NCBI RefSeq assembly: GCF_900141805.1
Contig: NZ_FQYN01000002.1
Coordinates: 310,001-374,000, forward strand
DNA: 64,000 bases
Reading direction: 5' to 3'
DNA from: Hymenobacter daecheongensis DSM 21074
GTDB taxonomy: Bacteria; Bacteroidota; Bacteroidia; Cytophagales; Hymenobacteraceae
Shown: positions 52,101-56,838 of the stretch, in pieces
Layout: each line of letters opens with the position of its first letter
How positions within the stretch are numbered: position 1 is the first letter of the stretch
The notes under the pieces: generated by a model
What the model was told of the DNA's origin: nothing
Database searches by the model: none
Seen by the model: the letters and a program-made list of their open reading frames with translations, nothing else
Translations under genes and position numbers: made by a program

Positions 52101-52183
52101 GCCCTTCACTGATTTCATTTTCTGACTAACCCCTCGTGCATCGGCGGGTGGGCCTTGCGCCTGCTCCTACTCCCAAGCAAAGT

Positions 52184-55174
52184 ATGCGTAGTTACAAAAG
52201 CCTGAATAACCTGGTGGGCTGGCTGGTTTTTGCCGTCGCCACCCTCACTTATCTGCTTACGCTGGAGCCCACGGCCAGCTTCTGGGACTGTGGCGAGTTC
52301 ATTGCCTGCTCCTATAAGCTGCTGGTGCCGCATCCGCCGGGGGCCCCTACTTTTCTGCTGCTGGGCCGCCTGTTTTCGCTGTTTTCCTTCGGCGATGTCA
52401 CCAAGGTTTCGGTGCTGATTAACATGCTCTCGGCCCTGAGCAGCTCGTTCACGGTGCTGTTTCTGTTCTGGACCATCACGATGCTGGCCAAGAAGCTGGT
52501 GCTGAACCAGCCCGGCCTGCAGGACGACCGCCTGGCCGAACCGACTATGGGCCAGACGCTGCTGATTCTGGGCGCTGGGGCCGTGGGGGCCCTGTCTTTC
52601 GCCTTCTCTGATTCGTTCTGGTTCAATGCCGTGGAGGCCGAGGTATACGCCATGTCGGCGCTGTGCACGGCGGCCGTGGTCTGGATTATGATGAAGTGGG
52701 AAAACCGCGCCGACGAGCCGGATTCCGACAAATGGCTGATTTTGATTGCCCTGGTGCTGGGCCTCAGCATCGGGGTTCACTTGCTGAACTTGCTGGCCAT
52801 TCCGGCCCTGGGCTTTATTTATTACTACCGTCGCCACCCCAACCCGACGCTGTGGGGCGGCGTGTTCACGCTGGCCATCAGCAGCCTGATTGTGGGCCTG
52901 ATTCTGGCCGGCATCATTCCGGGGCTACCGTCATTGGCAGGCGGGTTTGAGGTGTTTTTCGTGAACAGTGTGGGGCTACCGTTCAATTTCGGCCTGGTCA
53001 TTTTCCTGGTGCTGTTCATCAGCCTGATCTGGTTTGGCTTCCGCTACTCGTTCCGCAACCAGAACCGCCTCGTGAACACGGCCATGTTGTGCCTGGTGTT
53101 CATTCTGATCGGCTACTCGTCGTACCTCATCGTGCCGATCCGGAGCAGCTACCACCCCACCATCAACGAAAACAACCCCGAGGATGTGCTTTCCTTCGTG
53201 AGCTACCTCAAGCGTGAGCAGTACGGCGACCGGCCCCTGCTGTATGGGCCGCAGTTCAACGCCGAGCCCATCGACCAGAAGGAGGGCGCGCCGCGCTACG
53301 TGCGCAAGGGCGACAAGTACGTGGTGGCCGAGCGCAAGCTGGAAACCATCTACCGTGACGAGGACAAAATGCTGCTCCCGCGCATCTATAGCCCCGACCC
53401 GAGCCACCTCTACAACTACAAGAAGTGGGTGGATATTCAGGAAGGCGTGAAGCCCACAATGGGCCAGAACCTGAGCTTTCTGTTTAAGTACCAGATCGGG
53501 CACATGTACTGGCGCTACTTCCTGTGGAATTACGTGGGCCGCGAAAGCGACATTCAGCAGGCCGGCGTGGTATGGCCCTGGGACGGCGGCAAAGCCGGCC
53601 TGCCCGAGCGCATCGCCGACAGCCCCGCCCGCAACAATTTCTTCGCCATTCCGCTGATTCTGGGCTTGCTGGGCCTGTTTTACCAAGCCCGGCGCGACGG
53701 CCGCAATGCCTTTGTGGTGGGGCTGCTGTTCCTGTTCACGGGGCTGGCCATTGTTATCTACCTGAACCAGCCGCCCATCGAGCCCCGCGAGCGGGACTAC
53801 ACCTTCACGGGCGGCACGTTCGCCTTTGCCATCTGGATTGGCCTGGGTGTGCTGGGGCTGGCCGATTTGCTAAAGGCAATTTTGAAAGCAGACTCGGCCC
53901 GCGCCGGGGCGGCCACGGCGCTGGCCCTGCTGGCTCCCGGCCTGATGCTGACTCAGGGCTGGGACGACCACAACCGCTCCGACCGCTACAACTCCGTCGA
54001 TTCGGCCAAAAACCTGCTCAACAGCTGCGCCCCGAACGCCATTCTATTCACCAACGGCGACAACGACACCTTCCCGCTCTGGTACGCTCAGGAAGTGGAA
54101 GGCATTCGCACCGACGTGCGCGTGGCCGTGCTCAGCTACCTGAACACCGACTGGTACATCAACCAGATGAAGCGCGACTCCTATAAGTCGGCCCCGCTGC
54201 CGATTTCGATGAGTTCCGACGACTACGCCCAGGGCACCAACGATTACCTGCCCTACGTGGAGAATCCGGCGGTGCAGGAGGTGAACCTGAAGGAGTTCGT
54301 GCAGCTTGTGGATCAGGACAGCCCGCTGTTGCAGGTGCAAACCCAGAGCGGCCGCTCGATGCTCTCGTTCCCCACGCGCAAGTTTTTCCTGCCGGTTGAT
54401 ACGGCGGCCGTGGAAAAGCTTGGCATCATCCCGAAAGACCGCCGCAAGCAGCTCGTCTCGCGCATGGAGTGGGATATGGGCAAGGGCGCCATCGAGAAAA
54501 AAAACCTGGTGATTCTGGACATGCTGGCCACCAACAACTGGAAGCGCCCGGTGTACTTCTCCACCACCGTCAACTCCGACGACTACATGAACCTGCAGCC
54601 GTACTTCCAGCTCGAAGGCCTGGCGTACCGCATCTTGCCCGCCCGCGACCCGAACTACGACCCGCGCAGCCAGGACGATGGCTACGTGGCCCAGGACATC
54701 ATGTTTGAAAATATGATGAACAAGTTCGTGTACCGCAATCTGGACCGCGCCGACATTTTCTACGACGAAAACAACCTGCGCTTCCCCAGCAACTACCGCC
54801 GCCAGTTCTCGCGCCTCACCGATACCTATCTGGCCGAGGGCAACAAGGCCAAAGCCAAGCAGATCATGGACAAGGCCTTTGCGGTGATGCCCGACAAGTC
54901 CATTCCCTACGACTATTCGAGCCCGCAGTTTGTGGTGCCGCTGGTGCAGGTGGGCGAAAAAGCCCGCGCCAACGAGGTGATGGACACCATGACCAACCGC
55001 GCCCAGCAGGCCCTGGCCTACTACAGCACCCATAACAGCGCTCTGTTCGATATGGAAGTGCAGGCCAACCTGGCGGCTTTGCAGAGCGTGTACCGCGCCG
55101 CCGAGCAGGTAGGCGACCAGGCCCGCGCCAAAAAAGCCTATGACCTACTCAATCAGTACTACCCGCGCCAGTAA
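52184..55174 (+). CDS. DUF2723/GT117 protein O-glycosyltransferase-like membrane protein
   Basis: The 996-residue protein has about 12 membrane segments in its first 500 residues and a large soluble C-terminal half. Near the start, SFWDCGEFIACSYKLLVPHP (with Asp35 and Glu38 in the acidic pair) and GAPTFLLLGRLFSLF match DUF2723/GT117. Related C-family transferases use lipid-linked sugars. The C-terminal part has NDTFPLWYAQEVEGIRTDV, which is also typical. It probably transfers a lipid-linked sugar outside the cytoplasm. The family has links to protein O-glycosylation in Bacteroidota, but the donor is not known here. The start at 52184 (MRSYKSLNNL) fits the membrane start, and the GTG at 52136 is rejected. 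Confidence 0.9.
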   Translation: MRSYKSLNNLVGWLVFAVATLTYLLTLEPTASFWDCGEFIACSYKLLVPHPPGAPTFLLLGRLFSLFSFGDVTKVSVLINMLSALSSSFTVLFLFWTITMLAKKLVLNQPGLQDDRLAEPTMGQTLLILGAGAVGALSFAFSDSFWFNAVEAEVYAMSALCTAAVVWIMMKWENRADEPDSDKWLILIALVLGLSIGVHLLNLLAIPALGFIYYYRRHPNPTLWGGVFTLAISSLIVGLILAGIIPGLPSLAGGFEVFFVNSVGLPFNFGLVIFLVLFISLIWFGFRYSFRNQNRLVNTAMLCLVFILIGYSSYLIVPIRSSYHPTINENNPEDVLSFVSYLKREQYGDRPLLYGPQFNAEPIDQKEGAPRYVRKGDKYVVAERKLETIYRDEDKMLLPRIYSPDPSHLYNYKKWVDIQEGVKPTMGQNLSFLFKYQIGHMYWRYFLWNYVGRESDIQQAGVVWPWDGGKAGLPERIADSPARNNFFAIPLILGLLGLFYQARRDGRNAFVVGLLFLFTGLAIVIYLNQPPIEPRERDYTFTGGTFAFAIWIGLGVLGLADLLKAILKADSARAGAATALALLAPGLMLTQGWDDHNRSDRYNSVDSAKNLLNSCAPNAILFTNGDNDTFPLWYAQEVEGIRTDVRVAVLSYLNTDWYINQMKRDSYKSAPLPISMSSDDYAQGTNDYLPYVENPAVQEVNLKEFVQLVDQDSPLLQVQTQSGRSMLSFPTRKFFLPVDTAAVEKLGIIPKDRRKQLVSRMEWDMGKGAIEKKNLVILDMLATNNWKRPVYFSTTVNSDDYMNLQPYFQLEGLAYRILPARDPNYDPRSQDDGYVAQDIMFENMMNKFVYRNLDRADIFYDENNLRFPSNYRRQFSRLTDTYLAEGNKAKAKQIMDKAFAVMPDKSIPYDYSSPQFVVPLVQVGEKARANEVMDTMTNRAQQALAYYSTHNSALFDMEVQANLAALQSVYRAAEQVGDQARAKKAYDLLNQYYPRQ

Positions 55175-55289
55175 CGGCCGAGTTGCGTTTTAGATTGCCG
55201 ACAGCCGCTCCCGCTTGGGGGCGGCTGTTTTGCTGCCTCCCCGGCTGCCTGGCCCGGCGCGGCGTGCCTCAACCTCAAAAACCGCTTTC

Positions 55290-55520
55290 AGAGCCTCAAA
55301 AAGCCATTCCGCCACCCCGCCAATTGCTCGCGCTGACGTTCCGGAGGCTCGCGCCGGGGCTTCGGAAGGGCGCGCCGGGGAGTGGGAAGGGCCCGGCGGC
55401 ATTTCGGAGGCTCGGGCCGTCATTCGGAGAGCACCCGGCGAGGTTTTGGAGGCCCCCGGCGGAGCGGGGCAGGGACGTGGCCGGGCAGCAACCGGCACGC
55501 GCCCGGCGGCGGCCAAAATC
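55290..55520. repeat. Degenerate 21-bp tandem array
   Basis: At least seven degenerate units of about 20-24 bases resemble GxTTCGGAGGCxCGCCCGGCG. The repeat is readable without stops in several frames. On the minus strand it would encode heptapeptides such as ARASEMP, ARPSEAP and ARASGTS, and on the plus strand TFRRLAP, GLRKGAP, AFRRLGP. None of these frames begins with a credible signal or domain, so I treat the array as a repeat rather than as coding sequence. It lies in the 446-base gap before the GWxTD gene, which holds nothing else that I can support. Confidence 0.55.
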
Positions 55521-55620
55521 CGGGGCGGTGTTGGCGGTCAACCAGCGGGGCAGACACCCGAAACGGGCGGCTCCTACGTTCAATACCAGCGCCCAACATT
55601 GCCTAACGTGCGCTGCCCTC

Positions 55621-56838
55621 GTGAAAACTCCCCTGCTCTTCTTGCTATTGCTGCTCCTATGGGCGCCCCGCCCGGCCGCTGCCCAGCGCCGCGACTTTGC
55701 CGGGCTCTACGCGGCCCAGCGCCGCCTGCAGCTCGATACCCGCCGTGAGGCCGACAGCCTGCATTTCTACGTGCGCTTCGCCGATGGCAGCGTGCTGCGG
55801 CGCGGCCACCCGTTGCGCCTGGCCGCCTGGGCCGGCTACGAGGCCAAGCGCCCGCTCTGGCAGGATACCGTGCCCCGCCTTGGCCGCCGCATCCGGCCGG
55901 CGGGGGCGGCCAGCTGGGTCGAATTCTCGCTGCCCGCCGCCCGGCTGCGGCCCGGCCAGGTACTGAGCCTGCACTGCGGCCCCGCCGACGAAGCTGCAGC
56001 CGGCCCCGATGGCGCGTGGCTGCTGCTCACGCCTGAGCGCCTGGGCCGCGCGTTCATCCTCACCGATTCGGTGGGCGACCCGCTGCTGCGCCCGTTTATC
56101 CATAGCGGCGAGGCCGTGCGGGTGGACAGCTACGGGTCGGAGCAGCCGGTGACGGCCAAGCTGTATTCCACGGCCGGCTTTGCCGCCGCCCTGCCGCCCA
56201 TGGCCGACCCCGCCACGCAGCCGCCCGCCCCCCGCACCCTTGGGCTGCTCGATTCGCTGTTTTTTCGGGCCGGGCAGGAGCTGCGGCTGCGCCGGCCGGG
56301 GCTGTATGCGCTGCGGGTGGGCGATGCGCCCCGTCCGCTGGCGCTGCTGGTGGAGGAAAACGAGTTTCCGGCGCTGAAAACGGCCGACGACCTGATTCGC
56401 CCGCTCATCTACCTGACTACTTCCGCGGAGCGCCAGAAGCTCTACAACGCGCCCAATCCCAAGCACGCCGTGGATGATTTCTGGCTCAGCATCGCCCGCG
56501 ACAATCAGCCCGTGGCCCGCCAACTGATTCGCACCTACTATGGCCGCGTGGCCGATGCCAACCGGCTGTTTTCGGCCCACAAAGCCGGCTGGATGACGGA
56601 CCGGGGGCTGCTGTATGTGGTGCTGGGGCCGCCGGAAGCGGTGTACCGCACGGCCACGGAGGAGCGCTGGGTGTACCGGGGCACTGAGCGCGGCACGGCC
56701 ACGTACACGTTCCGGCCCAAACCGAGTACCTTTGCCCCCGAACACTATGAATTGGTGCGCCGCCCCGAGCACGAGCTGCTTTGGTATGCCGCCGTGGAGC
56801 AATGGAGAAAAGCACTGACCGCCCCGACCGCCCGCTGA
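55621..56838 (+). CDS. GWxTD domain protein, exported
   Basis: The 405-residue protein starts with GTG at 55621 and a clear signal peptide (VKTPLLFLLLLLLWAPRPAAAQ, with the first residue read as Met). It carries the GWxTD domain near residue 323 (AGWMTDRGLLYVVLGPPE), followed by an ERWVYRGTERGTATYTF core. GWxTD proteins are widespread in Bacteroidota and related phyla but uncharacterised. The frame stays open for 438 bases upstream through the tandem repeat, but that part is a low-complexity translation and is excluded. The gene overlaps the methyltransferase gene by 37 bases. Confidence 0.88.
   Translation: MKTPLLFLLLLLLWAPRPAAAQRRDFAGLYAAQRRLQLDTRREADSLHFYVRFADGSVLRRGHPLRLAAWAGYEAKRPLWQDTVPRLGRRIRPAGAASWVEFSLPAARLRPGQVLSLHCGPADEAAAGPDGAWLLLTPERLGRAFILTDSVGDPLLRPFIHSGEAVRVDSYGSEQPVTAKLYSTAGFAAALPPMADPATQPPAPRTLGLLDSLFFRAGQELRLRRPGLYALRVGDAPRPLALLVEENEFPALKTADDLIRPLIYLTTSAERQKLYNAPNPKHAVDDFWLSIARDNQPVARQLIRTYYGRVADANRLFSAHKAGWMTDRGLLYVVLGPPEAVYRTATEERWVYRGTERGTATYTFRPKPSTFAPEHYELVRRPEHELLWYAAVEQWRKALTAPTAR

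Follow-up and report, generated by a model that had tools for sequence, protein, structure and literature searches.

The nearest published element that we found to the repeat array described here is BrickBuilt of Porphyromonas gingivalis, a MITE/minisatellite with 1 to 22.8 units of 23 bp and a leader and tail with inverted-repeat ends (PMC4596501). In the parts of that report on which we draw, BrickBuilt resembles our array family in its occurrence in Bacteroidota, its leader followed by a spacer-less tandem repeat, its intergenic position in several copies, and its imperfect units, one half of which is conserved and the other variable (PMC4596501). However, it differs in unit length (23 bp against a period of 21 here) and in the inverted-repeat ends of its leader and tail; our family has no conserved tail after the repeats, and no companion gene family is reported in those parts (PMC4596501). 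STAR elements of staphylococci, as excerpted in the source consulted, are also interspersed intergenic direct repeats and can be likened to the array family by description only (PMC3532100).

According to the sections of the source that we consulted, type III toxin-antitoxin systems (ToxIN) likewise have a tandem array that precedes a gene of the same strand, with unit and protein diversifying together, as in the gene-linked modules described below (PMC5086642). Compared with the systems of those sections, the modules are unlike type III in having no terminator-like hairpin ahead of the gene (25 of 26 cases), in encoding an all-helical protein, in carrying a promoter-like motif, where one is found, after the array, and in having array-only copies elsewhere (PMC5086642). 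The type III layout of an array upstream of a gene was found in 54 of 61 gene-linked regions and is absent from the copy analysed here, and a check for a ToxN-family endoribonuclease gave no Pfam match above cut-off in 12 members of the protein family; the predicted fold is all-helical. Direct repeats of about two helical turns beside a small-protein gene are found in the iteron and centromere arrays of plasmid replication and partition loci, and the modules share this arrangement. Unlike those loci, however, the modules lie on chromosomal contigs, are present as several paralogous copies per genome, and encode an acidic protein. Moreover, no partner gene (motor or initiator), nor any other neighbour, is common to all 14 module neighbourhoods, in which neighbours were identified by profile in part, although related modules share some. 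In the literature covered, which lay mostly outside subscription journals, we found no description of 21-bp arrays in Hymenobacter or Bacteroidetes, or of the PQLLE proteins considered below.

The array lies in a 64,000-nucleotide stretch of DNA, here called the window (Table 1). A preliminary description, made from the letters of the window, had reported a degenerate 21-bp tandem repeat of seven or more units at 55290-55520. The repeat is real, as the autocorrelation of this interval is 0.524 at lag 21, 0.450 at lag 42, and 0.423 at lag 63, and none of 2000 dinucleotide shuffles reached 0.524 at lag 21 or at any lag from 4 to 63, which excludes an absence of periodicity. The strongest 21-periodic 230-bp stretch in the 64 kb (55265-55494, 0.545; next separate place 0.445) overlaps the array, in which Tandem Repeats Finder reported 55350-55399 only (2.4 copies). 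A unit profile made from 17 arrays at other loci, with the array of the window left out, placed eight units with a score of 99.7 (next best place -36.8 on the plus strand and -32.8 on the minus strand), although units 7 and 8 are weak (3.8 and 1.7 bits); the bounds first given were slightly wide. By this eight-unit profile, the array belongs to what we define here as subfamily A of the 21-bp array family. Its units are contiguous, with no CRISPR-type unique spacers between them, and the leader end directly before unit 1 is similar to that of other arrays (AATT/AAAT).

Table 1. Features at and around the array, numbered from the first letter of the window.
Feature	Position	Strand	Remarks
TMEM260-like (DUF2723) gene, upstream	52136..55174	+	PF11028, E 6e-73
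Terminator-like hairpin of the TMEM260-like gene	55201..55232	+	Present in the G017 empty site too
A/T-richer leader, ending CCAATT	55264..55325	+	Two CCTCAAAAA motifs 21 bp apart
Eight-unit 21-bp array	55326..55493	+	Unit 1 is GCTCGCGCTGACGTTCCGGAG; one-base shift in unit 5 (by eye); periodicity and profile
TACGTTCA, -7-like promoter motif before the GWxTD gene	55575..55582	+	Present in G017 too
GWxTD-domain gene	55621..56838	+	405 aa; GTG start chosen by us; PF20094, E 3.7e-59

Stops over the eight units number 1, 0, 0 on the plus strand and 0, 1, 0 on the minus strand, such that four of the six frames are open where three had been counted; the minus-strand heptapeptide ARASEMP/ARPSEAP pointed out earlier is indeed read, as TARASEMP..ARPSEAP, in an ORF at 55190-55516. 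The adjoining gene is the GWxTD gene that had been named, with a profile match and with a signal peptide recognized by eye only. The array ends about 80 bp before TACGTTCA, whose -7-like label rests on what we take to be the promoter consensus. A gene for the helical protein described below is absent directly downstream, and we name the window array an orphan because its next gene is the GWxTD gene and the gene-linked copy of this genome is on contig C14.

The sister species G017, with a GWxTD protein of 77% identity, has the terminator and TACGTTCA but neither leader nor array. No array was found in 18 further orthologous intergenic regions, so that only the window has one among the 20 compared. 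Because G017 has the neighbouring genes without the array, the window copy was probably gained in this lineage, and the simplest reading of the alignment is an insertion of roughly 0.3 kb with approximate ends. An inverted repeat, GAAGTTCC...GGAACTTC, recurs before GWxTD in several species (intergenic regions L098, L099, and L105).

A search for the same unit elsewhere in the genome, as the preliminary description had suggested, found two more arrays, one from C8:665592 on, before an M28 peptidase gene, and one on contig C14 (reverse strand of L172), which gives three in all. When 204 genomes of the family were searched by pattern, related arrays turned up in 12, and the 39 matches compare with 7 obtained with the pattern reversed; two of the 12 genomes (G134 and G139, of another genus) are taken for putative coding sequence. 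A profile search of 120 genus genomes yielded accepted arrays in 13, the weakest in G070 (E 1.4e-4), and the remaining weak matches among the 65 genomes listed at E <= 0.1 are regarded as chance. A scan of named genomes with a pattern that proved narrow gave two matches, Hymenobacter guriensis (an array on NZ_JADWYK010000008.1) and Isoptericola, the latter taken for putative coding sequence; the genus of the array-bearing relatives is by inference Hymenobacter.

Typically, an A/T-richer leader is followed by eight units, with 3 to 15 seen among the arrays, and the two leader-adjacent units are the best conserved. In 18 arrays, a set that leaves out G003c (which nearly duplicates G003b and lies at a contig end) and G034b, the information per 21-bp unit against background is 30.4 bits for unit 1 and 26.6 bits for unit 2, then 15.1, 13.1, and 12.5 bits per unit for units 3-4, 5-6, and 7-8, and no conserved sequence was found past unit 8 (2.1 bits over 21 columns for units 9-10 and 1.1 bits over units 11-14). 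The array family is a bounded element, mostly of eight units and best conserved at its leader end. The last third of the unit is common within some arrays (TTCCGGAG, GGCAAAC, CCTACC), and breaks in the 21-bp frame occur occasionally (window unit 5, G106, L249, L253). We also note that an array module recurs as a near-copy at a contig end (G003:C1:1-1041; L036, L192), where it carries small indels as well as in-frame stops and may be an assembly overlap of low quality.

Genes at array sites were called with our codon-model caller and named by reading their proteins, except for M28, GWxTD, and TMEM260-like, which were profile-checked. Array copies appear stable because several sites are common to different species: after nuoN (5 genomes), before the helical-protein gene (7), and at M28, moeA, and HNH (2 each). 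Gene-less intergenic copies occupy about 14 distinct sites by our grouping and have no orientation preference, the right-hand gene being co-oriented in 11 of 21. They also occur in genomes without a close homolog of the subfamily-A protein; in G051 none was found, and G007 and G054 gave only matches of 34-59% identity that were partial or belonged to another subfamily. A dispersed inverted repeat, GTAGAGACGC..., follows the nuoN-site arrays (L046, L170) and is likewise present close to this genome's second array (L002 1285-1385). The window array is almost certainly the orphan of a gene-array module, that is, a gene-less degenerate copy of this mostly eight-unit family, and a decaying repeat array was accordingly the best of the three options first offered for it.

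The gene that follows the array on contig C14 encodes an acidic, all-helical protein of 234 aa that belongs to no known family. This connection to a gene family at another genomic location is our main point, and it lay beyond the reach of a description made from the window. Homologs of the protein are found in 18 of 61 genus genomes, and the strongest period upstream of the 19 examined (from 37 match rows) was 21 or 42 in every case. A family-alignment search of the order extended the family to 28 of 390 genomes and 6 of 129 genera (45 rows; 18 regions fetched); arrays of 6 to 21 units precede the distant members at 15 fetched loci (poor at L245 and L249), and no array was found at L242 or at L247, where the gene is truncated and no 21-bp peak was seen. 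One distant homolog, L239, matches the NCBIfam PQLLE family protein NF052641 (E 7.5e-9, 35.6 bits), and PQLLE matches were found in 14 of 395 phylum genomes (32 rows, 30 loci read), 5 of them above cut-off and mostly with 21-bp arrays upstream, AT-rich ones included; most PQLLE matches in other families have such arrays. However, this family, which we compare by name only, has an 80-bit cut-off that none of 10 homologs scanned from the genus and order searches reached, the C14 protein itself scoring 12.5 bits.

Among lags 11-40, the winning period was 21 in 54 of 61 upstream regions versus 8 of 60 downstream regions, and an autocorrelation of at least 0.5 was seen in 51 of 61 versus 1 of 60. 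In the downstream control, lags divisible by three often won (27, 12, 39), as coding sequence would give. The seven upstream exceptions are L196, L242, L273, L274, L259, L280, and L264; we think that L196 was probably missed because of a wrong start codon, since its array is visible in another analysis, and L264 looks by eye like a flagellar-like protein and so no family member. This count omits L243 (contig end), L247 (truncated gene), L272 (an apparent one-letter run, perhaps masked), and three regions near contig ends, of which L260 and L269 have a 21- or 42-bp peak and L258 has none in the 149 bp before the gene; the 61 regions are not fully independent because orthologous pairs (e.g. L174/L175) are counted singly.

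The 21-bp unit length occurs in arrays of unrelated sequence, GC-rich and AT-rich, and its constancy despite complete sequence change points to an undescribed kind of genetic module. The novelty lies in the module, of which the window copy is a gene-less member. That 21 bp are kept phylum-wide while repeat and protein change suggests a physical constraint, either two turns of the helix or an RNA of fixed length, and the same pattern also suggests a cognate protein-array pair. If true, this would add a new type to the known nucleic-acid recognition modules, one that offers many naturally orthogonal variants and whose function can be tested directly.

The unit sequences are wholly different between subfamilies, and their types track the protein subfamily. 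Across 30 modules, protein and unit similarity are correlated (Mantel r = 0.643; 0 of 5000 permutations; reverse-complement control -0.005), with r = 0.472 for the 394 pairs under 0.6 protein similarity. Mean unit similarity is 0.412 for 12 same-genome module pairs, 0.379 for unrelated pairs, and 0.487 for close pairs of different genomes. This correlation fits a cognate pair as well as simple co-inheritance, and the co-diversification may be linked descent only. Among subfamily-A arrays, 24 of 26 have leader-side units closer to the rest of the array than distal units are (p 5e-5), as do 19 of 26 other modules (p 0.015), in a test that omits arrays under 6 units (G051, G096b) and cuts subfamily-A arrays to their first 8 units; the polarity is reversed in L244 (+0.95) and L181 (+0.61). 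This polarity suggests that the leader end is either renewed or more strongly constrained.

The AlphaFold2 model of the helical protein is all-helical (mean pLDDT 91, pTM 0.69), with an internal duplication apparent from its helix order by inspection. Net charge is negative in 28 of 30 members and neutral in 2, an acidity that argues against the protein simply binding DNA on its own. Fold libraries gave nothing at E <= 0.001, the VIA-align Z of up to 10.2 (LemA) is in the range that the tool calls common for helical bundles, PADLOC recognized 0 of 19 members, and a sequence search of the PDB gave a single match at E 0.59. A phage or plasmid origin is not supported, as one family protein had no match in phages or plasmids, no viral contig was confirmed with the family alignment (one pattern scanned), and array DNA had no match in plasmids.

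Phased binding sites are the mechanism that we favour, because the only thing conserved is the length of two DNA turns. We hypothesize that the array would serve as a DNA platform whose sites, spaced by two helical turns, are bound on one face by a sequence-specific factor, which may be the helical protein acting together with a partner, or else a co-inherited regulator. The platform would lie just upstream of the promoter of the helical-protein gene, and the leader-side units would matter most. Orphan arrays could have arisen by copying of leader and array to new intergenic sites, where they may now be decaying or acting as extra or decoy sites. A -7-like TANNTTNG lies between array and gene in 10 of 26 modules, against 3.07 ± 1.6 expected from mononucleotide shuffles and 0 of 26 leaders, a statistic that is indicative because the motif was chosen after looking. 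The platform is consistent with this motif, the constant 21-bp length, the upstream enrichment, the unit-protein correlation, the empty site of G017, the leader-side polarity, and the negative results for coding, RNA folding, and terminators given below. Against it stand an acidic helix-bundle protein without a telling fold match, units in which neither palindromic half-sites nor symmetry was found (29 arrays), orphans without orientation preference, orphans in genomes in which no close subfamily-A homolog was found, broken 21-bp frames, and the 16 of 26 modules without the promoter-like motif. The binding-platform mechanism is a tentative proposal that we place somewhat below even, and the explanation as a whole falls just short of an even chance. 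We give about even weight to a broader picture of a phylum-wide two-part element, in which a strand-directional 21-bp array and a cognate acidic helical-bundle protein would co-diversify into orthogonal pairs inside one genome, with renewal at the leader end and shedding of orphans, the window array included. The window copy, with no gene and with units 3-8 worn, may with modest expectation be considered a decaying orphan that is perhaps still bound at units 1-2. The regulatory spacer proposed earlier is possible in view of the motif after gene-linked arrays, but orphans show no preference for lying before genes.

It is possible, although unlikely, that the array is a self-spreading minisatellite or MITE-like element, with leader and repeat moved in trans by an enzyme, without function for its neighbours, and with the helical-protein gene as companion or frequent passenger. 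The gene-less copies at about 14 sites, their lack of orientation preference, the empty site of G017, and the similar layout of BrickBuilt in Porphyromonas would all fit such an element. However, 18 arrays have no common sequence after unit 8, the nuoN, moeA, HNH, and M28 sites are common to different species, and a fixed 21-bp length with a gene partner phylum-wide would be unexpected of junk.

On a less probable reading, transcription of the array would yield a repetitive non-coding RNA, the working partner of the adjacent protein as in type III toxin-antitoxin systems. The order of array and gene on one strand, the joint diversification of unit and protein, and the absence of a reading frame agree with it. 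Contrarily, 1 of 26 modules has a terminator-like hairpin within the 110 bp that precede the gene (two positive controls were found; the interval is longer in some modules), the promoter-like motif, where found, follows the array, and the 12 members examined have no Pfam match above cut-off. A structured RNA is further contradicted by the folding energies of 28 arrays, which show no trend on either strand (z -2.24 to 2.16 on the plus strand and -2.99 to 2.61 on the minus strand), and by the lack of Rfam matches in 5 loci.

Translation into a heptad-repeat small protein, another option of the preliminary description, is very improbable. The open frames of the window array point towards it, as do the ATG or TTG that 17 of 18 arrays have precisely at unit 1 and one frame with third-position-like variability (0.77, 0.75, and 0.39 bits), in which, however, the sixth codon breaks the pattern and TAG codons occur. 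Coding was rejected because every frame is closed in some array, no frame being open in all 20 related arrays translated, and because open frames are at chance level in a column-permutation test (forward in 24 of 29 gene-linked arrays against 22.9 ± 2.1 expected; reverse 25 against 24.0); in the AT-rich array L244, every frame contains 3-8 stops. Finally, a chance slippage minisatellite private to the window locus, which the occurrence of an array in only 1 of the 20 orthologous regions might suggest, is hardly credible, as related arrays that share its first units, found at other loci and also in other species, contradict it.

Several variants of the gene-linked module were also observed. An inverted second array to the left of the leader, absent at the window, was detected at 6 of 30 loci (z > 3), namely at L184, L186, L195, L246, and L250, all five of subfamily D, and at L238; in subfamily D, this second array lies across an A-rich leader and forms a large imperfect inverted repeat. 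In the AT-rich module L244, an inverted copy of the unit can be seen by eye between array and gene. Subfamily C (L282, L285, L293) has a small gene pair downstream in common by BLAST, nucleotidyltransferase-like and HEPN-like by eye, which is perhaps synteny only. Some PQLLE-linked arrays (L262, L260, L275, L276) are near-perfect at 42 bp, like alternating pairs of 21-bp units.
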